The notes under the pieces: model-generated
Told to the model about the DNA's origin: nothing
Database searches by the model: none
The model's input: the letters and a program-made list of their open reading frames with translations, nothing else
Assembly (NCBI RefSeq): GCF_000316605.1
Contig: NC_019683.1
Coordinates: forward strand, 1,286,036 to 1,350,035
Direction of reading: 5' to 3'
Source of the DNA: [Leptolyngbya] sp. PCC 7376
Lineage (GTDB): Bacteria; Cyanobacteriota; Cyanobacteriia; Cyanobacteriales; MRBY01
Length of the DNA: 64,000 bases
Part shown: piece by piece, positions 514 to 47,573 of the stretch
Layout: every line of letters begins with the position of its first letter
How positions within the stretch are numbered: the stretch's first letter is position 1
Position numbers and translations under genes: made by a program

Positions 514-1233
514 ATGGTTGATTTTGCATTAATTACAGAAGGACAGACTGATCAAGCTGTTTTAGAAAATATACTGTATGGTTATTTTGGAGAAGATGAT
601 ATAGATGTTAATCCCCTTCAGCCTAGAACAGACAAGACAGGTAGCTTTTATTTAGAAAATCAAAGTGATCAAGACGCAAAACGTAATGAGTATGGAACTT
701 GGGGAAATGTTTTCTGGTACTGTCGCTCAGAATTATTTAGAAGCATATTTCAAAATAACGACTTCGTGATCATTCAACTTGATACAGATGTTTCTGAACA
801 AGATGGATTTAAGGTGATGCAAACGTTTATAAACTCAGATGGTGAGCGTGAAAATCTTACAGTGGAAGAACTGATTCAGAAAGTTCAAGAAAGAATTATT
901 TATGAAATTGACAAGACTGTCCATGAAAGGTTTAAAGACAGAATCTTCTTTGCTATCTGTGTAGATTCAATCGAGTGTTGGCTCTTACCGATATTTTGCT
1001 CTGATGGTGACAAAAAAGCGACAAAAACTCAAGGTTGTTTTAAAGCTCTGAATCGTCAATTAGAAAAGACAAATAATAAAAGAATTCCGATATCTAAGCC
1101 TGTGCGTAGATATGCTGACATATCACAGCCTTATTCCAAGAAGAAAGTACTTTTGCAAAAAGGTGTTAAAAATCGAAGCTTAAAGATTTTTCTAGATTCG
1201 CTAGCTAAGCTTGATATTGAAGATATGGAATAG
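514..1233 (+). CDS. TOPRIM-like protein, partner of upstream ATPase (candidate defence effector)
   Basis: 239 aa. The N-terminus reads ITEGQTD, with Glu9 at the end of a beta strand, and a later strand reads FVIIQLDTDV with Asp90 and Asp92. The EG..D plus DxD pattern is the metal-binding signature of TOPRIM folds found in OLD-family nucleases, DUF4435/AriB and RloB-like proteins. The C-terminal half is Lys-rich. Start ATG lies 27 bp after the ATPase stop. An ATPase followed by a separate TOPRIM protein resembles PARIS (AriA-AriB) and other split OLD systems; nuclease activity is inferred. The gene is AT-rich and lacks HIP1 sites, fitting an acquired cassette. It could also be a non-defence TOPRIM protein. 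Confidence 0.6.
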   Translation: MVDFALITEGQTDQAVLENILYGYFGEDDIDVNPLQPRTDKTGSFYLENQSDQDAKRNEYGTWGNVFWYCRSELFRSIFQNNDFVIIQLDTDVSEQDGFKVMQTFINSDGERENLTVEELIQKVQERIIYEIDKTVHERFKDRIFFAICVDSIECWLLPIFCSDGDKKATKTQGCFKALNRQLEKTNNKRIPISKPVRRYADISQPYSKKKVLLQKGVKNRSLKIFLDSLAKLDIEDME

Positions 1234-1311
1234 ACCCAAATAATTTCATATTACGGTCGTCATATCTTGTTTTTTAGATTTTATGTTTAGAGTAGTGAGC
1301 CTGTATTTACC

Positions 1312-1425
1312 ATGTCCTAACCTTTTGATTTGATTCTTGTCGGCGCTACTGGATTTATGGGGTAAATTGGTTGTCGCTATTTGGTCACTCACAGCAAAAT
1401 AGAAGAGTTTAGATGGGCGATCGCC
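1312..1425 (+). pseudogene. Remnant of saccharopine dehydrogenase-like protein, N-terminus
   Basis: From ATG 1312 the frame reads MS*PFDLILVGATGFMG, then a second stop, then IGCRYLVTHSKIEEF and RWAIA. The dinucleotide-binding start FDLILVGATGFxGQ is typical of saccharopine dehydrogenase / trans-acting enoyl reductase family proteins (~400 aa). Both stops are TAA where CAA (Gln) is expected, so two C-to-T changes explain them. Homology ends at the HIP1 octamer at about 1417-1425, where a different remnant begins in another frame. Non-functional. Confidence 0.6.
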
Positions 1426-1607
1426 ACCGCACGATTTATGGCATTTTGACGGATGGCAACCTATGGCAATTCGGGAAACTCTATGATGATGTTTTTACTC
1501 AGCATCCTGAAAACTTTACGATAGACCGGATTGAGCGAGTTTATGGGGCACTAGAAGGTATTATGCAATTGGTAGAATGGGAAGACCAAGAAAGAATGCA
1601 ACCATAG
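1413..1607 (+). pseudogene. C-terminal remnant of a cyanobacterial hypothetical protein
   Basis: 64 codons. The stretch TIYGILTDGNLWQFGKL resembles the C-terminal part of longer (~200 aa) cyanobacterial proteins of unknown function, sometimes annotated as restriction-endonuclease-like. An in-frame stop sits directly before the ATG and there is no ribosome-binding site. It overlaps the end of the preceding remnant, with the join at GGCGATCGCC. Best read as the tail of a broken gene fused to foreign sequence. Family assignment is from memory and weak. Confidence 0.4.
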
Positions 1608-1989
1608 AGGCGATCTCGCAAATCGATGAAAATTACGCTAACCTGATCACGGTAGCGGCTAACTTGACTGTAAAAGATTACCATCTAGTCAATATTTTCA
1701 AAATACAGTTTCCGATGATTATGTATAAAATTCAATAGATATGTTATTTGCGTAGAATGTGAAAGCGACTCCAAGTCTACCCAAGGCTAAAATGATTGCA
1801 CATAACTCCAGCTGTTCCCAGACAGATCATTTAAATGTATTTTTTTATCAAGGATTTGGGAGATTAAGTGTTTGGTTATACTATGTGGTTTTGCTGTGAA
1901 AATCATTTTTTTCTATAGACTGTTAGCGAGATAATATTGTTATTGAATAGTCTCATTAAGATAATGTTTCAGATAAACGAGGTATGCCA
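1608..1989. other. Intergenic, AT-rich, no gene seen
   Basis: About 380 bp with stops in all frames. I see no structured RNA or repeat. The last part presumably carries the promoter of the sulfotransferase gene; a CGAGG motif at 1978-1982 is its likely ribosome-binding site. Confidence 0.5.
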
Positions 1990-2892
1990 ATGAGTATCGT
2001 CTGGCTAAGTTCTTATCCAAAATCAGGCAATACGTATCTGAGATTTTTACTATTTTCATATATATATGGCTCGTTTAAAACAAGTAGTGATGTCGAAGAA
2101 AAAGTGAAAGATTTACACTTTTTCATGAGTACTCAGGTCGAACCTAAGCTCCTCGAAAAAGAGTTCAGCAATAGAGCTATAACAACTCGGATATATCGCC
2201 GCTTTTTCGAGTCAGAAACAATAAAGAATAAAAGATTGCAGAGGAATCGCGAAATTATCATGCAGGAGCTTTTGCAAAAAGCCTATGCTCCTGATGAATT
2301 GATGTTTATGAAAACTCACTTAGCCTTTTCGGAAAATCACCCTTTGTCAAATAAATCCTCCAAATTTATTTGCATTATTCGTAATCCTCGTGATGTTCTC
2401 AAAAGTGGATTGAGATATCTTCTCCAAGATAATGCGAGTGATGAACAAAAGCAGAAGCTTGTGGAAGAATTTATTTTTGATTATGGTTTTTCTGTATTCA
2501 AGAAAGGTGGTTTTGGAACTTGGATTGAGCACATTTCGAGTTGGCTAAATGCGTCAGCACACATGCCAGGAATTTTTGTGAAATATGAATCTTTAAAGCA
2601 CGATACACAACAGGAAATGGAACGAATTCTGAATTTTTTGGACATCGAAATTGATGCAGAAAAACTAGAATATGCAATTCAACAGAGTTCTTTGGATTCA
2701 ATGCGAAAAATCGAGAAGAAAGAGAAAGAAATTGGGTCTAAAGAACAAGGCATTTTTCGAACTTATTCTAATTCCAAACCTTTTGTTGGTTCGGGAAAAA
2801 GCAATCAATCACTAGAAGAATTTGGGGAGAATTTTGAAAATATATTTTCTCGGAATTTTGCATCTTTGATTGAATTATTTGGCTATTCATAG
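1990..2892 (+). CDS. Sulfotransferase domain protein
   Basis: About 300 aa. It transfers a sulfuryl group from PAPS to an unknown acceptor. The 5'-phosphosulfate loop is SSYPKSGNTYLRFLL near the N-terminus, and the 3'-phosphate site is CIIRNPRDVLKSGLRYLL near residue 135. Both are hallmarks of the Sulfotransfer_1 fold, and the length is normal. I chose ATG 1990 over ATG 1984 because CGAGG at 1978-1982 gives 7-nt spacing to the former and only 1 nt to the latter. The gene is AT-rich, has no HIP1 site and sits between gene remnants, so lateral transfer is likely. Bacterial homologues often modify glycans or lipids. No neighbour reveals the substrate. Confidence 0.85.
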   Translation: MSIVWLSSYPKSGNTYLRFLLFSYIYGSFKTSSDVEEKVKDLHFFMSTQVEPKLLEKEFSNRAITTRIYRRFFESETIKNKRLQRNREIIMQELLQKAYAPDELMFMKTHLAFSENHPLSNKSSKFICIIRNPRDVLKSGLRYLLQDNASDEQKQKLVEEFIFDYGFSVFKKGGFGTWIEHISSWLNASAHMPGIFVKYESLKHDTQQEMERILNFLDIEIDAEKLEYAIQQSSLDSMRKIEKKEKEIGSKEQGIFRTYSNSKPFVGSGKSNQSLEEFGENFENIFSRNFASLIELFGYS

Positions 2893-2932
2893 TCGATAGT
2901 ATTTTATGCAGAAGCAAATCTAGAAGTACGAA

Positions 2933-3064
2933 GGGGATGTCTAAAAAAGGTCTATTCGTAACTTTTGTTGAGATGAGCTGAACGAAAGAATAAACCTTTC
3001 TGGCAATTACCCTGGTGAAAATCACACAGTATTTGGTGTATATAAAAACTTTTCAGATAACCTC
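2933..3064 (+). mobile_element. 132-bp MITE, copy A
   Basis: Terminal inverted repeats are GGGGATGTCTAAAAAAG (2933-2949) and the complement of CTTTTCAGATAACCTC (3049-3064). It is exactly 132 bp, as is copy B, and aligns with the reverse complement of B over its whole length, sharing for example CGTAACTTTTGT near the left end. It has no coding capacity. The right flank is TTA; the left flank is GAA, so its target duplication is degenerate or absent. Confidence 0.7.
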
Positions 3065-3233
3065 TTAGTTCGTATACTTGATGAAGCCCAAGTTTCAATT
3101 GTTGAAAAAGTTAATTTAAAGCAATTAGTCGCCAAGATGCATGACATTGGCAATATTAAAATTGCAGATCATCGTCATAAGCTAAAGGTTTATCCACGCT
3201 GTTTTATTGGCTAGGAAGCTATGGGTTGGCTTA

Positions 3234-3365
3234 GAGGATGTCTGAAAAGTCTTTATGTTCGATAAATGCTGCGTAAATTCCGCCAGGTTGATCGCCTGAA
3301 GTGCTTATTTTTACGTGCAACTCATTTCGACAAAAGTTACGGTCATTCTCTTTTCAGACATCCTC
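3234..3365 (-). mobile_element. 132-bp MITE, copy B, inserted in DEP pseudogene
   Basis: Perfect 16-bp terminal inverted repeats GAGGATGTCTGAAAAG (3234-3249) and CTTTTCAGACATCCTC (3350-3365), flanked by direct repeats TTA (3231-3233 and 3366-3368). Removing the element and one TTA joins GWL to IENLDLG in frame, which directly supports insertion with a 3-bp duplication. TNA duplications and ends starting GAG are typical of some IS5-family transposases, so such an enzyme probably moved it (inference). Confidence 0.85.
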
Positions 3366-3497
3366 TTATTGAAAATCTGGATTTAGGACATGCAGATACT
3401 ATTGATTGAGGTCAACGTTTGGTCGAAGAAAATCTTATTATCGCGTGGCAGATGAATATTTATTTGAAGATGATTATTTGTTCTATCGTTTTTATTG

Positions 3498-3541
3498 GGA
3501 TGAGCAAAAATAGTGCAATGGATGAGCAAAAATAGTGCAAT
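3498..3541 (+). repeat. 22-bp perfect tandem duplication
   Basis: The 22-bp unit starting GGATGAGCAAAAATAG at 3498-3519 is repeated at 3520-3541. The first copy contains the final codons and stop of the DEP pseudogene. The duplication lies at the border with the IS5-type fragment, so it may mark that insertion event. Confidence 0.85.
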
Positions 3542-3646
3542 TTTTCTAGTTTTTAGATAGAGGATATGGTAGTCCTAAAGGTGTAAGAGAAGTTAAAAAG
3601 AAGAAAGTAGACAAACAAGCATGACAAATGCCAAGTTTATGAACAA

Positions 3647-3944
3647 TTGCAAGACCTTACACCAGAGCATTTTAGATGGGCTTGTGGAGTAAAACACAAA
3701 ACATTCCGTCTCATGGTAGACATACTGGCAAAAGCCAAAGCAAAACAAAAGCCCGGTCGTCCGAGGCAGCTATCCTTTGAAAATCAGTTACTGCTGACAC
3801 TGGAATATTTACGAGAGTATCGCACATACTTTTACATCGCTCAGTCTTGGGGACTCCATGAATCAACAGTGTGTCGCACAGTACAGAAGACAGAGAAGAT
3901 TCTGAGCCAAAGGGAAGAATTTCATCTACCCGGAATGAAAAAAT
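3647..3944 (+). pseudogene. IS5-family transposase, N-terminal fragment
   Basis: About 99 codons. The helix-turn-helix segment LTLEYLREYRTYFYIAQSWG followed by ESTVCRTVQKTE is the N-terminal DNA-binding part of cyanobacterial IS5-family transposases (HTH_Tnp_4 type). The DDE catalytic domain is missing. The frame runs into the left end of an IS1-like element at 3945, which truncates it. The remaining part is not found elsewhere in the window. The initiation codon is unclear; the frame is open from the stop near 3610. Confidence 0.7.
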
Positions 3945-4698
3945 GGCATTGCAGAATAGAGGTATGAATGGATGATGCTGACCCAATGCAATGTCCGGAA
4001 TGTCAATCTACTCATATCCGTAAGAACGAAAAAAAGAGGCAAACACAATCACATCTGTGTAGATTGTGGCCGTCAGTTTATCGACCACTACAGTAAGCTC
4101 GGCTACTCCAATGCCTTCAAACGTGAATGCCTCAATGTATATCAATAGCATGGGCTTTCGGGCCATTGAACGGGTGAAAGGAGTACATCACACTCGTCAT
4201 CACTTGGGTCAAACAAGTCAGTGAGTTACTATCGGATGCTTATGAACCTGAGCAAGTTTCTCAGGTTGGTGAACTCGATGAACTTCAAACCTTTGTCGGT
4301 GCAAAAAAACAAGGTCTGGCTCTGGACAGCAGTAGAGCATTTTCAACCGGGTATTCTCGCCTGGACTGTTGGTGATAGATGTGCAGAGGCATTCCAGCTA
4401 CTATGGGGCATCGTTAGTCTCTGGAAATGTTTCTTCTACATCACAGATGGCTGGAAAGTGTATCCCATGTTTATACCGGATAGTGACTAGGTTGTCAGTA
4501 AGACCTACATGACTCATGTTGAAGGGGAGAATATTCGATTGCGGTACTATCTCGCTCGACTTTATCGAAAGACTTGATGTTATTCAAAGTCTCTGGAAAT
4601 GTTAGAGCATTCGATTTGATTGCTGATTCATGACCTCAAATTCGAGGATGTTCCTGTCTCCCAATGCTCATAGATTCATTCCTCTATTCTGCAATGCC
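3945..4698 (+). mobile_element. IS1-family element, copy 1, decayed
   Basis: 754 bp, bounded by inverted repeats GGCATTGCAGAATAGAGG (3945) and the complement ending at 4698. It holds an InsA-like zinc-ribbon start (DPMQCPECQSTHIRKN from about 3968) and an InsB-like part (WTAVEHFQPGILAWTVGDR near 4320-4375, then CFFYITDGW). Several frameshifts and stops break both, so no active transposase is expected. It truncates the IS5-type gene. An 8-bp spacer AAGACTAT separates it from copy 2. Confidence 0.8.
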
Positions 4699-5109
4699 AA
4701 GACTATGGCGTTGCAGAATAGGAGTATGAATTTGAGGATGCAGACCCAATGGAATGTCCAGAATGCCAATCTGCTCATATCCGTAAGAACGGAAAGAAAA
4801 AAGGCAAACAGAATCACATCTGTGTAGATTGCGGTCGTCAGTTTATCGACCACTATAGTCGGCTCGGCTACTCAAATGCCTTCAAACGTGAATGCCTCAA
4901 AATGTATGTCAACGGCATGGGCTTTCGAGCAATTGAACGGGTGAAAGGAGTGCACCACACTACCGTAATCACTTGGGTCAAAGAAGTCGGTGCATTGCTG
5001 CCTAATGCTTATGAAGGGAGTGTCAAGAATTTTGTGTAAGCAAAGAAAATTAGTGAAGAAAATACTCTGGATTATCAATGGCAAAATAGCTTAAGCCCCT
5101 TTTCCAATG

Positions 5110-6292
5110 CAGGGTTGTTTCATTCTTAGAAAAAATAGAGAGAATAAGAGGAGATAGGCGTTCAACGATGAAAAATGAGCGAAAGCTTACTCGATACACT
5201 GAGTCGTATTGAAGACCCGAGACAGGCTTCCGGACGAAGACACTCATTATCTTTGATATTACTGATAATCATCATGGCAGGTATGAGTGGTGAATGGGGA
5301 TATCGAGGTATTGGGCGATTTATTGAGCGACATCGCCGGGAGCTGATTAGCACCTTACAGATTCCTGAAGCTCGTGTCCCCTCCTACTCAACGGTACGGC
5401 GAGTGATGATGGAATTAGATTTCCAGCAAGTGACACAAGTCTTTAACCAATGGGCAAGACAATATGTGAGAAAGGGAGACATTGTGGCTGGGGACGGTAA
5501 ATCCCTCAAAAACACCGTGCAAAACTATGACAACAAGAGTCAAGATTTTGTCACAGCAGTGTCTTTATTCTGTCAGCAGCGACAAGTTGTTTTGGGCATG
5601 AAAATGAGTCGGAATAAGAAAGAGAGTGAAATCTCAGTAATCCGGCAATTACTGACAGAGTTAGATTTACCATCAGTCACTGTGACTTTAGATGCCTTAC
5701 ACACTCAAAAAAACAATCCAGTTACTCAGACAACGCGGACATGACTACCTAGTGACAGTCAAAGGCAACCAGAAAAAGCTGTATCAAGCTTTAACAAACT
5801 ACTGTCAGGAACAAAAGCCAATCGCTCAACATGAATCCCAAAATGTTGGTCATGGTCGTTCTGAAAAAAGACGAGTAGAAGTCTGGTCTGTGCCGACTTC
5901 ACTAACGCCAGAATGGAAAGATATACAATCCGTTGTCCGCATGACTCGGTGGGGACAGAGGCAGAGCCAAGACTATGAAAATCAGATGTTCTACATCACT
6001 TCATTACCACCACAAGGACTAAAGCTGAGTCGAGTAATTCGACAGCATTGGCAAATCGAGAACAACCTACATTGGGTAAAGGATGCACTTCTTGGGGAAG
6101 ACAAAGCACAACAAAAAGATGGCCATGCTCCAGAGAACTTTGCCATCTTCCGTAGTTGGGTAATCTCGCTATTGAGATTGAACGGCTATTCATCCATAAC
6201 GGAAGCCATAGCTCTGATTTCTCACCGATTACCGTTTTTTACTATCGTTGTGTACTGCTTAGCTTCTTTCTCTCAAGAATGAAACAGCCCTG
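5110..6292 (+). mobile_element. ISAs1-family element inserted in the IS256 element
   Basis: 1183 bp with inverted ends CAGGGTTGTTTCATTCTT (5110) and the complement of AAGAATGAAACAGCCCTG (ending 6292). Flanking perfect direct repeats CCTTTTCCAATG occupy 5098-5109 and 6293-6304. Twelve bases is slightly longer than the usual 8-10 bp duplication, so one or two may match by chance. Sequence on both sides is IS256 transposase 3' end, which proves the nesting. Confidence 0.9.
5175..6282 (+). pseudogene. ISAs1-family transposase with one frameshift
   Basis: Two overlapping frames make one ~369-residue DDE transposase. The first (5175-5744) has SRIEDPRQASGRRHSL and IVAGDGKSLKNT. The second (to 6282) continues QLLRQRGHDYLVTVKGNQ and ENNLHWVKDALLGED, the DDE_Tnp_ISAs1 hallmarks. 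The join lies in a run of seven A at 5706-5712 (CAAAAAAAC): removing one A gives LHTQKTIQLLRQ. This is probably a recent 1-bp insertion; slippage on the A-run could still yield some full protein. Confidence 0.85.
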
Positions 6293-7980
6293 CCTTTTCC
6301 AATGGGGTATTGTATTGGTATCGTCCATCTCTTCATCAAATGCTTCAGGGCTAAATACAGCAATTTCAGGGCAGCATCTGCATGGGGGAACATGCCCTTG
6401 GTTTTTCACACCTTGCCCAAAGAGCGATTGACCGCCTCAATGGCATTGGTGGTGTAAATGATGCGGCGGATGGGAGCTGGATAATCAAATAATGGAATGA
6501 TGTTTTCCCAATGATTCAGCCATATTTGGGAAATAGTGGGGTAGATACCGTCCCAACGCTCCGCAAAAGCAGTTAAGGCGGATTCTGCCTCGGAAACTGT
6601 GGCGGCCTGGTAAATAGGCTTGAGGTCTGACACCACGGACTTACGGTCTTTCCAAGAAACGAATTTCAGGCTATTTCGTATCAGATGAACGATACATAAT
6701 TGCACTCTCGTTTTTGGGAACACCGCTTCAATGGCAGCGGGAAATCCCTTCAACCCATCCACACAAGCTATGCAGATATGTTCGACTCCCCGATGGTGGA
6801 TTTCATTCAGCACTGACAACCAAAATTTTGCCCCCTCTCCTCCCGAGGATAGCCACATTCCTAAGACCTCCTTGTGACCGGACTGCTTCACTCCCAGTGC
6901 TAGATAGAGAGTCTGATTCGTATCCCGTCCTTCCTCTCTGATTTTTATTCTCATGCCATCCAGCCACAGGATTGGATATATCTCCTCCAGAGGGCGATGC
7001 TGCCATGCTTTGATTTCCTCCATCACTGCCGAGGTCACTTCACTCACTAGCCCAGCTGAAATCTCCACCCCATACAGTTCTTGCATTTGTGCCTGAATAT
7101 CTCTGGTACTCATACCTCGACTGTACAAAGCCAGTATCTTCTCTTCTAGCCCTTGAATACGCCTTTGACCTTTGGGTACTAACAGCGGCTCAAATTCACT
7201 TTTCCTATCCCTTGGGATGCTGATATCCATTTCCCCTTGGGTTGATTTGATTGTTTTCTTGGAATAGCCGTTTCGACTATTCTGCTTACCTGCTTCTTTG
7301 GCTTGATTCAGATGATGACTCAATTCCCCTTGCAAGGCTCTTTCAATTAATCTCTTACTCAACTGCTGTAGCAAGCCTGATTCTCCCAGAATTGATTCCG
7401 AGTCTGGACAATCTTGCAGTAATTCATCAATCAGTTCATCGGCTCTACTGGTTTGATTCTGTTTTTTCATGGGTCATGGTCTCCTTGCTTTTTTCTGGAT
7501 TTTGACCGCTTACACAAATTAATTTACATACCCTTTATGAACCGGAAGAGATGCCTCAGGTCGGGGAATTCGATGAACTTCAAACATTCGTCGGTGCTAA
7601 AAAAACAAGGTCTGGCTCTGGACAGCAGTAGACCACTTTCAACGAGGTATTCTCGCTTGGACTGTTGGTGACAGAAGTGCAGAGACATTCAAACCATTAT
7701 GGGCAATCGTTAGTCTCTGGAGATGCTTCTTCTACATCACAGATGGCTGGCATGTTTATCCCATGTTTGTACCCGATGGTGACCAGATTATCAGTAAGAC
7801 CTACATGACTCGTATCGAAGGCGAGAACACTCGATTGCGGCATTATCTCGCTCGACTCCATCGAAAGACCTTGTGTTATTCAAAGTCTGTGGAAATGTTA
7901 GAGCATTCGATTCGATTGCTGATTCACTATCTCAAGTTCTGGGATGTTCCTATCCCTCGACCCTCATAGATTCATACCTC

Positions 7981-8648
7981 AATTCACCAACGCCTCTTTT
8001 TGTAAATACTGTGCCAGAGGTTGAGAGACGTAACCTTTATCAGCAAAGACTTTTCCCGATAACTCTTTCAAAAGCTCCACAGCCGGTTTTTTGTCATCAA
8101 TGTTGCCAGGGGTGATTTTTACATTGAGTAATTCGCCATGGTCATTGATAACCAGATGTAGTTTGAAACCAAAGAACCAACCCACAGATGTTTTTCCTCG
8201 AGCAGCATGGCCATCAAAAACGTGATGTTGAGAGATACGGCGATTGTGACAAACCTTGATACTAGTGGCATCAATAAAGCTGATTCCTGTGCATTGACCA
8301 TAACAGTGCTGTAGGTAGACACATAGAGGTACTAACGTCGAAGGCATCCACTCCACAAAACGTTGGTCACTCACTGCTCGTGGAAAAGCTCCTCGCCAAT
8401 AGATGACGCACATTGATGAGGTAGAAATATTTGAAATTACGATAATGAGATTGATCAAAAGCAATCAGTATCGTCATTATCTCGCTTAAACTCAAGCTTC
8501 TTGAGCGACGTCGCCGCCGTTGTTTCGAGGCCAGCAGCTGTTGTTGCCATTGAGGTTCGAAGACTTGGCAAACATCATCAACAGCACAAAACAAAGGCTC
8601 TAGACTGGTCATGGGAGAAAGTGGTGGATTGCTTATCAACTCCCACAA
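7981..8648 (-). pseudogene. IS982-family transposase, frameshifted and truncated
   Basis: The N-terminal part from ATG 8648 reads LSLSEIMTILIAFDQSHYRN then FKYFYLINVR. A frameshift near 8400 leads to WRGAFPRAVSDQRFVEWMP, then FIDATSIKVCHNRR, KLHLVINDHGELLNVKITPG and GKVFADKGYVSQPLAQYLQ. These are the DDE_Tnp_IS982 motifs. The last ~60 residues, including the final catalytic region, are missing. Not functional. Confidence 0.85.
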
Positions 8649-42807: not shown

Positions 42808-45168
42808 ATGCGTTCACGTCTTTCCTCAGACTCGGTAAGAGTAATACGACAAAAAATTTGGCACCTGAAAAAATGGATTTTATTGGGTTTATTTTTGATT
42901 TCTATGCTGGGTGCTGTTGGTCTACAGCAGTGGTATTTTAATGAGGAAGGGATTGAAATTGCGATTAATTTACCCGTAAATCCGAATGGGAGATCTGATA
43001 TTGCGGCGAACGCACGGGAAATGTGGCGTGGCTCCCAGATTTATATTAACGAAGTGAATCGTCAAGGTGGCGTTAATGGTCATCGTCTTAAGCTGACAAA
43101 GGTGGTGATGCAAGGAGCAGACCACGAAAAATACGCGGTAGAGCAAGCGAAAAAAACAGCAAATAGTGAGGCGATCGCCATGATTGGGGGATATTACAGT
43201 TCTCTAATGATTGCGGCGGGCAAAGTGTATGAAGATGCTGAAATGCCTGCAATTACAGGTATTGCCCTCGCCGATGAAGTGACAAAAGATAATAATTATT
43301 TCTTTCGAGTCGTGCCGAACCGCAGTTGGCGGAGCTCCTTTATCGCGAGCTATATTTACCAAGTTTTAGGCCATCGAAATGTGGGTATTGTTTTAGATCC
43401 TGAAGATATAGAATTCGGTCTAGGTTCCGCCCAGGATTTTAAAGCATCTTTTCAAGAGCAAGGAGGAACTGTCACAAATGAGTGGCTCATTAATGAACAG
43501 TCTCCAGAGGCGATCGCCACAGAATTAGTCGCGTTAAATCCAGACATTGCTTTTCTGGCCCTTCAGTCTGATCAAATTACCTCTGTGGTGAAAGCGGCAC
43601 GACGCGAAGGGTTTGAGAATCCGATGTTTGTTGCTGTGTCTTCTTGGAGTGCCCAAAGCTTGGCCAACGAACTCGAAGAAAGAGAGAATCCCGGCGCACT
43701 CAGTCATGACGTCTACATGACGGCAGACCTCATCTATGATGTTGCCAGCAAAGTTGCTCTGGATTTCCGTCGCCAATATGCCACCCAATATGACAACGAA
43801 GAATTTCGTCCCGTCACTGCAATTTCCTATGACGTGACCAAGGCGATGGTTGCAGCCATTGAGAAAAGCAATGTTACTGGCCATGCCAATGCCATAAAAG
43901 AAGAACGTCAAAAAGTGCAGCAGGCGATCGCCAAATTAAATCGCCCAAGAAATGCTATTGACGGTTTGTCTGGTCAGATTTATTTCAACAATGATGGCGA
44001 TGCCGAAAAACCACCTGCTGTGGGTATCTTCCAAAAACGACGTTTGATTTCTGCCTATGAGCAATTAAAAATCAACCCTGCATTTATCCCTTCCGTAAAA
44101 GAAGCGATTAAAGAAAAGGAAGAGGGCAAAAATATTACCCAGTTGGCTAAGATTCTGAATAAAGAGAAACTGCTTCTCGTAAATAATTTACCGATGAAAG
44201 TAGCTAATGTTATTTATACAGGAATTGATATCAATAAAGTCCTAGAAATTGATCAAAAAGAATCAAAATATAAGATCGATTTTTTCATTTGGTTTAAATA
44301 TCATAAACGCGAGAATCTAGAGCCAAGATTAGTTGAATTTATTAATTCCTCTGAAAGTAGTCTAGCTATCGAAAATCCTGTTCAAGTAACAGTGAATGGC
44401 GAGATCATGACAGAAGACTATGAGGCTGAAGAAGGCGATTTGATCACTGAAGCTTACCGTGTCAAAGAAATATTTCAAGAGCCTTTCGAATTTTATGATT
44501 ATCCTTTTGACACCCAAAATCTAGCGATTCGCCTCAGACACCAATCTCTCGATCGGAGTGAGATTTTATATGTGGTTGATTTGTTGGGGATGAGGGATAC
44601 AGATTTGAGTCAAACTATAAAAAATTGGGAAACCCATAACGTATTTGACACGATTACAGACTGGCAACTAAAAAAGGTCTCTTTTTATCCCGACGTTCTG
44701 AGTAATTTATCTACTCTTGGATTTTCTGATGAAAATCGTAGTGGCGATCGCCTAGAATATTCCCGCTTTAACGCTGTGATCGAAGTAGAGCGAAATCGCA
44801 AAGCCTTTCTATTGAAAAATCTATTGCCGTTGATTTTTTTCTTGTTTGTTGGCTATATCAACTTTTTTATTCCCCTATCCCAAACGAAATTTGCAGCAGT
44901 CACAAGTCTATTGATGGCAGTGGTTTTCTTCCATCTAAACTTACTCAATAAATTACCAGAAAGAGTGGGCTATATCGTTGCTTTGGACTACGCTTTTTAT
45001 TCGATCTATGCAATGTTAGGGTTTCAGATTTTGCTATTTGTAATTGGCTATTACAAGCCGATACGTGCTAATCCTCAATATTTGCAACGGTTAACTATGG
45101 CTGGGCAAATTGGTTATCCTGTGACGCTTGTGATTGCATTTGTGACATTCTTGATTATTTATGTCTAA
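42808..45168 (+). CDS. Periplasmic binding protein fused to pentameric ligand-gated ion channel
   Basis: 786 aa. A signal anchor at about 23-41 is followed by a type I periplasmic-binding (Leu/Ile/Val-like) domain at 48-420: IAINLPVNPNGRSDIAANAR, NEVNRQGGVNGHRLKL, IAMIGGYYSSLMIAAGKVYE. Residues 455-660 look like the beta-sandwich of Cys-loop-type receptors: YTGIDINKVLEID, FFIWFKYHKRENLEP, and FYDYPFDTQNLAIRLRHQS with the (F/Y)PFD motif. Four membrane helices follow at about 668-690, 695-713, 722-748 and 764-786, the pLGIC count, with LLMAVVFFHLNLLNKLPERV as the pore helix region. There is no disulfide Cys-loop, as usual in prokaryotic members. The inferred role is an amino-acid- or metabolite-gated inner-membrane channel. 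Monocistronic; no transporter partners nearby. Confidence 0.85.
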   Translation: MRSRLSSDSVRVIRQKIWHLKKWILLGLFLISMLGAVGLQQWYFNEEGIEIAINLPVNPNGRSDIAANAREMWRGSQIYINEVNRQGGVNGHRLKLTKVVMQGADHEKYAVEQAKKTANSEAIAMIGGYYSSLMIAAGKVYEDAEMPAITGIALADEVTKDNNYFFRVVPNRSWRSSFIASYIYQVLGHRNVGIVLDPEDIEFGLGSAQDFKASFQEQGGTVTNEWLINEQSPEAIATELVALNPDIAFLALQSDQITSVVKAARREGFENPMFVAVSSWSAQSLANELEERENPGALSHDVYMTADLIYDVASKVALDFRRQYATQYDNEEFRPVTAISYDVTKAMVAAIEKSNVTGHANAIKEERQKVQQAIAKLNRPRNAIDGLSGQIYFNNDGDAEKPPAVGIFQKRRLISAYEQLKINPAFIPSVKEAIKEKEEGKNITQLAKILNKEKLLLVNNLPMKVANVIYTGIDINKVLEIDQKESKYKIDFFIWFKYHKRENLEPRLVEFINSSESSLAIENPVQVTVNGEIMTEDYEAEEGDLITEAYRVKEIFQEPFEFYDYPFDTQNLAIRLRHQSLDRSEILYVVDLLGMRDTDLSQTIKNWETHNVFDTITDWQLKKVSFYPDVLSNLSTLGFSDENRSGDRLEYSRFNAVIEVERNRKAFLLKNLLPLIFFLFVGYINFFIPLSQTKFAAVTSLLMAVVFFHLNLLNKLPERVGYIVALDYAFYSIYAMLGFQILLFVIGYYKPIRANPQYLQRLTMAGQIGYPVTLVIAFVTFLIIYV

Positions 45169-45491: not shown

Positions 45492-47573
45492 TCAATCATG
45501 AAATGAAACACTGTCAAAAAGTTGACTTACATTGGTTGAACTCATCGGCCGACCAAGATAATAGCCTTGAATAATATCCGCACCACAGCGCTGAACCAAA
45601 TTCATTTGTCTAACGGTTTCTACACCCTCTGCCACCACTGAAAACCCCAAATCATGACAAAGTTGTATGCTCGAAGAAAGTAGTATTTGCCCTCGTTGAG
45701 CTTCCTTTGTCGGGGCGAAAATCAGTTTTCTATCTAATTTGATTTCGTCTGCCTTTAAGGCTAATAAAGTAGTTAAAGAAGAATAACCTGCGCCGAAATC
45801 ATCAATTGAAATACGATGACCTGCTGTTCGTAGTTGTTGAACAACTGACGCTAATGCTGATATTTCTACAGTATAAGTATGCTCAGTGATCTCTATATAA
45901 AAGCAAATATTGTGGTATTTTGCTCTGTCAATAAACTCTTTGACAGCCAATTGGTCTAATAAAAATTCTTTATCAAAATTAAGCGCAATAGGTGGCACCA
46001 ACAATCCTTCTGACTGCCATCGTAGTATCTGCAAAAAGGCGAGATCTACAACCTTCTTGTCTATGATTTTCGAAAGTCCTTGTTGATAAAGTACTGGAAG
46101 AAAGGTGGGCGGCAGAATTTCTCCCTTATAATTTTGAAATCGGAGTAGAGCCTCTAATCCTACAAGCTCAAGAGATTGGGCATTAAATTTAGGTTGAAAA
46201 TAAAGTAAAAATTGTCCACCTCTTAACTTTTTCAATACTTGTTGAGCCGAAGTCATGTTTTTCATCTTGGCTCGCTGTTTTGCTATAAATATTCGCTCTT
46301 GTTGGTGATTGACTTCTCCTTGAATGAAGTCATGAGCATCTTCACCAAAAAGATTTAATAGATAACTTGGAGCTTGATACTGACGACTAGAAAGTAACAA
46401 AAAAGGAAAATAAATACAGCTATCTACTACCAAACATAGAAACTGAGTCAAAACAGACAAACCAGATCCATCAGTTGCAGCATATGCGCTATAAAGCGGT
46501 GGTGACATCCAGTGAACAGGTGTGAGAGATAGGTGAAACAAGCCAAAGTGAACAGCAGAAAGGGCGATCGCCATATTGACAAATGGCACGACTACAAACG
46601 GAATCAAAAAAATAGGGTTTAAAAGGATTGGCAGCCCAAATAGCAGAATTTCATTAACATTAAAAAATGAAAAAGGGAGGCTTAACCGAGCAATAGATTT
46701 GAATTGTTTAATCCTCTTAGAGAAAAGAATCAAAAATGGGATGACAAAAGTTGATCCAGATCCTCCAATATTCATAAAAACATCATGAAAGGTTTTGAGT
46801 CTAATACTATAATTTTCACCATTTGGTATATCATTAATCAGCCGAAATAGACCATCAGCACTATGCTCTCCATGTAAACCAATAAACCAGGTGAAAAGTG
46901 AAATAGTTTTGTATAAAATCAGCTCTAAAATTTCAGATAATTGATAAAATCGTGGGTCAATGTATGCTACTACCCCAGAGAAGTCTATACAAAGAAAAAT
47001 ATTGATTATCTGACCAATAAACTCAAAATAGGCAACAGTTAATAGACCAGGAATAATTAAATTCAGTGTTTGTTTTAGACGGGGATTAATATCATTTTGA
47101 TAAACAGTCAGTGGAATCTTTGAAAATTTCAAGAAGTAATGTAATAACCTAACTGCAATCCAAGTGCTAGGGATACTTGTAAGAATTGAACCATGGTAAG
47201 AAATGAGCTGAGCTGAGTCATTAACGATCAGAAATCCAGATACTCGAAAAAAACAAACCATCGCAATCAGAATTGTACCGATTTGATCGAGACCTTTTTC
47301 TTTGGCTAGAAGTGAGCTAAGCGATAAATTAACAAATAAAGGAATTAAAAAAAAATATAGTCGACTAATGTCATCTCCATTAATTGCTGATGCATCGGTC
47401 ACCCCCCAAAACTCCAATAAGCTCGTCAAGCCAGAGAAGAGGACCAATATATTCATGACTAAAACAATTGGTAACAAGGAGAGAAAGGCTTCTCGAAGTA
47501 ATAAGAAAGGTTTTATCTCAAATGATTCTTTAAGTAGTGATAGAGGATTTAATCGAACGAAGTAATTTCGCAT
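45492..47573 (-). CDS. PTS EIIC-like membrane domain fused to EAL phosphodiesterase
   Basis: 693 aa. Residues 1-400 are a multi-spanning membrane domain with signatures of the lactose/cellobiose PTS EIIC family: FIGLHGEHSADGLF (230), FMNIGGSGSTFVIPF (266) and FFNVNEILLFGLPILLNP (303). Residues 445-690 are an EAL domain: GLEALLRFQ (EAL at 474), FYIEITEHTY, ISIDDFGAGYSSLTTLLALK, VVAEGVETVRQ and IIQGYYLGRP, so the catalytic set appears complete. No EIIA, EIIB, HPr or EI gene is nearby. Likely a membrane sensor of a sugar that adjusts cyclic-di-GMP breakdown (inference). Confidence 0.88.
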   Translation of the reverse strand: MRNYFVRLNPLSLLKESFEIKPFLLLREAFLSLLPIVLVMNILVLFSGLTSLLEFWGVTDASAINGDDISRLYFFLIPLFVNLSLSSLLAKEKGLDQIGTILIAMVCFFRVSGFLIVNDSAQLISYHGSILTSIPSTWIAVRLLHYFLKFSKIPLTVYQNDINPRLKQTLNLIIPGLLTVAYFEFIGQIINIFLCIDFSGVVAYIDPRFYQLSEILELILYKTISLFTWFIGLHGEHSADGLFRLINDIPNGENYSIRLKTFHDVFMNIGGSGSTFVIPFLILFSKRIKQFKSIARLSLPFSFFNVNEILLFGLPILLNPIFLIPFVVVPFVNMAIALSAVHFGLFHLSLTPVHWMSPPLYSAYAATDGSGLSVLTQFLCLVVDSCIYFPFLLLSSRQYQAPSYLLNLFGEDAHDFIQGEVNHQQERIFIAKQRAKMKNMTSAQQVLKKLRGGQFLLYFQPKFNAQSLELVGLEALLRFQNYKGEILPPTFLPVLYQQGLSKIIDKKVVDLAFLQILRWQSEGLLVPPIALNFDKEFLLDQLAVKEFIDRAKYHNICFYIEITEHTYTVEISALASVVQQLRTAGHRISIDDFGAGYSSLTTLLALKADEIKLDRKLIFAPTKEAQRGQILLSSSIQLCHDLGFSVVAEGVETVRQMNLVQRCGADIIQGYYLGRPMSSTNVSQLFDSVSFHD

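Follow-up and report, generated by a model that had tools for sequence, protein, structure and literature searches.

A type I periplasmic-binding domain fused to a pLGIC-type channel core in a cyanobacterium, with relatives that carry an MscS pore

RESULTS

The locus and the domain layout of its product

The window analyzed here is a 64,000-nucleotide stretch of the genome of [Leptolyngbya] sp. PCC 7376. At positions 42808 to 45168 of its forward strand lies a single, intact ORF with an ATG start codon, encoding a 786-residue fusion of a type I periplasmic-binding domain (PBP-I) to a pLGIC core (here called the window protein). Upstream on the same strand, a HEAT-repeat gene stops 323 bases short of the start codon, and a convergent downstream gene (45492 to 47573, minus strand), which is AT-rich (GC, 0.36), encodes a fusion of a PTS_EIIC membrane domain and an EAL domain. 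The window protein is encoded once in its own 5.13-Mb, single-contig genome, where two further matches were weak and were to the PBP part only.

Hydropathy marked an N-terminal hydrophobic segment (residues 20 to 42; positions 42865 to 42933) within a helix of the AlphaFold2 (AF2) model (residues 7 to 44); as a signal anchor or signal peptide, it could anchor or export the N terminus. The type I periplasmic-binding domain (residues 47 to 422; 42946 to 44073) is followed by a pLGIC extracellular beta-sandwich (residues 453 to 662; 44164 to 44793), located by a match to GLIC, the family profile, and the strands of the model. The sandwich contains the Pro loop YPFDTQ (residues 565 to 570; 44500 to 44517), in which P566, D568, and Q570 were checked and P566 is shared by all 50 rows of alignment A4, and it ends in the pre-M1 arginine, R662 (44791 to 44793). 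The model then places M1 (residues 664 to 687; 44797 to 44868), the presumed pore-lining M2 (residues 695 to 715; 44890 to 44952), M3 (residues 723 to 748; 44974 to 45051), and M4 (residues 756 to 785; 45073 to 45162), directly after which the chain ends. Histidine 709 (44932 to 44934), towards the outer end of M2, is found in 37 of 50 aligned family members, the window protein included. The residues before M2 are Q-T-K, which fit neither the cation nor the anion motif in the passages of Tasneem et al. (PMC549065) that deal with these motifs.

The N-terminal half matched Pfam Peripla_BP_6 at residues 65 to 400 (E, 1.4e-29) and ANF_receptor at residues 80 to 401 (E, 2.9e-26). Its closest solved structures by sequence were 4mlc, an extracellular ligand-binding receptor (8.9e-14), and 3td9, of the branched-chain type (2.6e-13). 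The model superposed on LivK 3td9 with a Z score of 39.8 (345 residues; rmsd, 3.0) and on GluK2 chain 9c60_B with a Z score of 33.6, and the best 50 matches listed in the structural comparison were PBP, mGlu, and GluK chains. Profile and fold agree that this half is a type I periplasmic-binding domain, as the original prediction had proposed. The likeness to animal glutamate receptors drawn there is fair for the layout of the PBP-I part; in ionotropic glutamate receptors the pore is inserted in a PBP-II domain, whereas the window protein had no PBP-II match and its channel half is pLGIC-like.

For residues 445 to 786, Pfam gave no Neur_chan_LBD or Neur_chan_memb match; among the relatives, one passed the Neur_chan_memb cut-off (L061; 34.1 bits versus 28.1). 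A phmmer search with the C-terminal 342 residues retrieved GLIC chains (E, 1.5e-10; residues 27 to 338 of 342), and GLIC was also found in a profile search with ten family members (E, 4.8e-18). A pLGIC relationship of the C-terminal half had been proposed from the sequence, and it was recovered through GLIC and not through the Pfam profiles. The homology to this characterized pLGIC spans the beta-sandwich and the membrane part, and two further marks of the class are present: a Pro loop with a proline and an acidic residue and a basic residue before M1. The AF2 monomer model (mean pLDDT, 86; pTM, 0.83), computed from an alignment of 50 sequences (the window protein and 49 related sequences), has strands between residues 455 and 662 and then four helices in the pLGIC order, in line with the sandwich containing YPFDTQ and the helix arrangement originally read; pLDDT blocks of the PBP domain were mostly above 90. 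The fold assigned to the channel half rests on sequence homology together with the secondary structure of the model. The label "Cys-loop" should not be taken literally, as the window protein has no cysteine and hence no disulfide-forming pair of the kind that defines the metazoan receptors in the narrow sense. The chain as a whole has PBP-I N terminal to a pLGIC core, which is the layout of a PBP-I-fused pLGIC.

Distribution, phylogeny, and genomic setting of the family

Prokaryotic channels with additional N-terminal domains were called rare in the original prediction; the surveys showed the fusion to be more widespread. A match was present in 15 of 100 genomes searched (the own genome included), and another ten full-length fusions were obtained from eight of the others. 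Among 388 genomes sampled from the class, 76 had a match at an E of 0.001, many of them weak, and 31, again including the own genome, had a match at an E of <1e-50; these 31 represent 11 genera, with 21 genomes in one genus. At 30 fetched loci, all 30 ORFs scoring above 100 bits combined PBP with a pLGIC membrane domain (28 with these parts and 2 with an additional solute-binding domain). A scan of contigs with the channel half of the window protein itself gave 30 pattern matches and no relative; with family alignment A2 as the query, relatives were recovered. A scan of bacteria and archaea with a single genome for each species gave 93 relatives, of which 80 were kept, from groups that include Cyanobacteriota, Chloroflexota, Thiotrichaceae, Thermodesulfobacteriota, Streptomyces, and Verrucomicrobiota. 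A search of a plasmid collection gave 116 matching records, and no record had a place that covered 80% of the query. Sorting of 91 ORFs with our own models, and with Pfam on part of them, yielded 60 with PBP-I and a pLGIC core (a few being fragments), 12 with a solute-binding domain after M4, and 19 with an MscS pore.

In a tree from which four short or PBP-less ORFs were dropped and to which L034 was added, the window protein sits at the end of a long branch (1.55, versus a median of 0.34) inside a cyanobacterial clade of 14 rows (SH-aLRT, 98). Separate PBP and channel trees (67 rows each, with MscS forms and incomplete rows left out) gave the same Pleurocapsa protein, L042, as the row closest by path, in keeping with joint inheritance of the two fused parts. 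In the PBP-only tree, the window row was in no well-supported group, and the closest PBP by identity (36%) was a protein other than L042, namely, L050. Judged by sequence, the window protein belongs, as a divergent member, to a cyanobacterial clade of PBP-I/pLGIC fusions. GC content steps from 0.456 in the PBP part to 0.36 in the extracellular and membrane parts; a recent fusion, as such a step might indicate, was not supported, since both halves share their nearest row by path; the downstream gene, too, is AT-rich.

None of five other genomes of the genus had a match to the channel half, and their best matches to the PTS_EIIC-EAL gene (31 to 35%) were to the EAL part. A genus mate (G005) has kept the HEAT gene at 86% identity, its best match to the PTS_EIIC-EAL gene was 33%, and DNA similarity to its contig stops at the end of the HEAT gene. 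The receptor thus lies at the edge of a variable stretch.

Other N-terminal regions were also seen. One cyanobacterial pLGIC (L037, 7433 to 9604) has an N-terminal dCache domain, and another (L036, 9152 to 11077) has an N-terminal region with no clear Pfam match. Long extensions precede the PBP in L082, L092, L094, L097, L098, and L107 (Streptomyces, Verrucomicrobiota, and Chloroflexota/Thermomicrobiota), with TPR-like stretches below the Pfam cut-off in L098 and L107; such extensions would mean an intracellular N-terminal domain and an uncleaved anchor.

Relatives with an MscS pore or with two flytraps

The 19 MscS-pore forms are L106 (4738 to 8184), L093, L100, L103 to L105, L108 to L110, and L112 to L121; L034 (660 to 3569) is a further chain with PBP-I, a pLGIC-type extracellular domain, and an MscS pore. 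A cNMP-binding domain is present in 14 of the 19, and Pfam MS_channel_2nd was found in all 11 forms tested (ten as C-terminal pieces and one whole). L106 lies on the finished chromosome of Desulfonema magnum. Another form (WP_012976639.1, annotated as an ABC transporter substrate-binding protein) is encoded on a finished plasmid, pAB510b of Azospirillum sp. B510; it matched Peripla_BP_6 (1.7e-38) and MS_channel_2nd (4.2e-18), and its extracellular part matched the family channel profile (5.2e-29). One cyanobacterial genome (G071) has an MscS-pore form alongside a pLGIC-pore form. On Azospirillum plasmids (L166, 1 to 7560; L167, 1 to 5862), the MscS-pore form adjoins an ABC-transporter gene; in B510 it also adjoins a VCBS-domain protein, and in A. 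brasilense a putative HlyD-like gene, read from its translation, is nearby.

In profile comparisons, the extracellular domain of the MscS forms matched that of the window family (1.4e-59) and a five-row cyanobacterial pLGIC set (9.1e-19) made up of four simple receptors and the channel part of one dCache form; a PDB search with the MscS-type extracellular domain profile alone gave nothing up to an E of 1. These profile matches support homology of the domain with its counterparts in the window family and in other cyanobacterial pLGICs. A model of the Desulfonema form (pLDDT, 78; pTM, 0.57, so that domain placement is uncertain) contains the flytrap, the sandwich strands, five long helices, and then the MscS beta domain, a helix count that would place the cyclic-nucleotide domain in the cytoplasm. 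A quick tree drew the MscS form with two origins, but these are not required: keeping the 19 rows together fit better by 24.7 log units (p-AU, 0.944).

The 12 forms with two flytraps (L056, with two ORFs at 1148 to 4699 and 4786 to 8349; L046, 7989 to 11600; and L051, L055, L057, L058, L061, L069, L084, L087, and L101) consist of PBP-I, the pLGIC core, and an SBP_bac_1-type domain after M4, that is, two different flytraps on one channel. Pfam SBP_bac_1 was detected in all three of the named forms tested and in three forms from other genomes, and L031 (5499 to 9134) is a further chain with PBP-I, pLGIC, and a C-terminal domain of the SBP_bac_1 type. Some double-flytrap loci adjoin another family member.

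Residues lost where the pLGIC pore is absent

Conservation was compared between the extracellular domains of 71 pLGIC-pore and 19 MscS-pore proteins (two PBP-less ORFs were dropped and L034 was left out) in an alignment that is least sure next to the membrane. Among the 71 pLGIC-pore rows, 23 positions reach a conservation of at least 85%. Eighteen of them retain the same majority residue in the 19 MscS-pore rows, 13 in every row, and five are lost: F562, Y565, P566, and D568, of the Pro loop, and the pre-M1 arginine, R662. P566 is proline in 71/71 pLGIC-pore rows versus 1/19 MscS-pore rows, D568 is aspartate in 64/71 versus 3/19, and R662 is arginine in 69/71 (lysine in the other 2) versus 0/19, with lysine in 8 of the 19. 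Inside the Pro loop, 13 of the 19 MscS forms retain F567.

The Pro loop and the pre-M1 arginine are parts known to contact the pLGIC pore. Loss of just these residues where there is no pLGIC pore would be expected if, in the window protein, they couple the sensor to the pore. The contrast may represent one event and not many, since the 19 MscS forms may be one clade. In the parts of Jaiteh et al. (PMC4795631) on conservation, the conserved residues of the superfamily are mapped to the ECD-TMD interface and assigned to the coupling pathway.

The flytrap contact residues

In LivJ-type proteins, four residues hold the amino acid: one serine, one threonine, one tyrosine, and one acidic residue. 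At the aligned columns, which we take to be the LivJ contact positions in the window protein and its relatives, the window protein keeps S131 and has L154, F203, and S278 in place of the others, the acidic column being placed differently by the 4mlc and 3td9 alignments. The full set (S, T/S, Y, and D/E) is present in 34 of 50 rows; T, Y, and D are present in all of the clade mates listed (at least 11 of 13), one of which has G at position 131. The ligands of the relatives are thus probably amino acids or similar compounds by these aligned residues. With three of the four contacts replaced, the window protein falls outside the amino-acid-binding subset, so that gating by amino acids, raised in the original prediction, is doubtful here; its ligand is probably something other than an amino acid. 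The three changed contacts and the long branch mean that its flytrap may even have lost binding.

DISCUSSION

The architecture of the window protein was already known, because PBP-I/pLGIC fusions (ART-LGICs) of two alphaproteobacteria, Magnetospirillum magnetotacticum and Bradyrhizobium japonicum, were described some two decades ago (2004/5) in the sections of Tasneem et al. (PMC549065) on these receptors; the binding-protein fusions mentioned in the original prediction are therefore on record. In the same sections, a role as chemotaxis receptors is suggested for the fusions and the cyanobacterial receptors known to the authors have a simple architecture. Set beside these ART-LGICs by description, the window protein shares the layout of PBP-I and pLGIC but is cyanobacterial, and its PBP has other residues at most of the aligned amino-acid contact positions.

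Its channel core resembles GLIC over about 310 residues (E, 1.5e-10), whereas GLIC chains in the PDB, of about 310 to 360 residues, have no PBP domain. DeCLIC likewise has a large N-terminal periplasmic extension on a pLGIC, but in the portions of PMC12664993 that describe it the extension consists of two calcium-binding lobes, likened to protease and collagenase regulatory domains, and no PBP. Ionotropic glutamate receptors share PBP-I at the outer end, as the GluK2 superposition illustrates, and differ in having their pore inserted in PBP-II, in place of a pore of the pLGIC type. LivJ/LivK-type proteins match the N-terminal half in fold and sequence; unlike them, the window protein has its PBP fused to a channel in place of working with an ABC transporter, and its contact residues are changed. 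The bCNG channels, MscS proteins with a cNMP domain, appear in the reference list of PMC4560390.

The analysis shows the PBP-I and pLGIC modules, their order, their homology, and the predicted monomer fold, together with the family-wide retention of the fusion, the Pro loop, and the arginine. We consider it moderately probable that the window protein is a flytrap-gated pentameric pLGIC in which ligand binding gates the pore. Each subunit would have a periplasmic type I PBP (Venus flytrap) stacked on the pLGIC beta-sandwich. A small periplasmic solute would bind and close the flytrap, flytrap closure would move the beta-sandwich, and this movement would reach M1 and M2 by way of the Pro loop and the pre-M1 arginine, so as to open or close a pentameric, M2-lined pore.

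That the fusion is an artefact of assembly or annotation has practically no probability: the genome is a single contig of 5.13 Mb, and assembly artefact or chance is ruled out by recurrence in independent assemblies, with ten full-length fusions from eight other genomes and instances in many more. The alternative that weighs most, although unlikely, is that the pLGIC half is gated directly by protons, calcium, or amines, as are GLIC, DeCLIC, and ELIC, beneath a PBP-I that has become a degenerate, non-binding cap with a modulatory or structural role. The S-L-F-S residues of the window PBP, set against the full S, T/S, Y, D/E set of 34/50 rows, and the long branch of the protein favor such a cap, as does DeCLIC, whose N-terminal domain, of another fold, appears in the described experiments to speed gating and not to trigger it (PMC12664993). 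A domain of about 375 residues that is no longer used should decay, however, and this one is intact, well modeled (pLDDT mostly >90), and recognized at an E of 1.4e-29.

It is quite improbable that the window protein is a non-conducting ligand sensor that signals by conformational change alone. The neighborhood, with a HEAT-repeat gene, a PTS_EIIC-EAL gene, and no evident partner gene, may be cited for it, but the four-helix core has been retained together with an M2 that aligns with that of GLIC without gaps. Moreover, relatives that have exchanged their pore have taken another channel domain, MscS, an exchange that speaks for a pore as the output. Gating of a pLGIC pore by the flytrap is the reading that we prefer.

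With moderate confidence, we regard the family as modular: one sensor, made of the flytrap and the pLGIC-type beta-sandwich, appears on two unrelated pores, and a third form has two flytraps. The window protein and most relatives use the four-helix pLGIC pore, and the others use an MscS pore, often with a cyclic-nucleotide domain. Among the matches listed in the literature searches, within a scope that mostly excluded subscription papers, titles and abstract starts contained no fusion of a pLGIC domain to MscS; those listed for a PBP-I/pLGIC/SBP chain likewise contained none. The window gene alone is of less interest than the MscS-pore and double-flytrap relatives.

According to the portion of Jaiteh et al. 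(PMC4795631) on function, no biological role was known in 2016 for any unicellular pLGIC. A channel topped by a flytrap offers a handle on natural ligands, because the soluble domain is open to binding screens. If the MscS forms are ligand gated too, the pLGIC extracellular domain would be a portable sensor, an MscS pore could be operated in the manner of a neurotransmitter receptor, and the selective loss of Pro loop and pre-M1 arginine would mark the coupling residues of the pLGIC superfamily in a natural experiment. Through the MscS-pore members, one sensor can be compared where it has to couple to a pLGIC pore and where it does not, a contrast that would be hard to design, and the five positions lost only in them provide a short list for the transmission of gating in nicotinic, glycine, and GABA receptors. 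A sensor shared by MscS and pLGIC pores makes it possible to investigate how sensors of this kind open channels.
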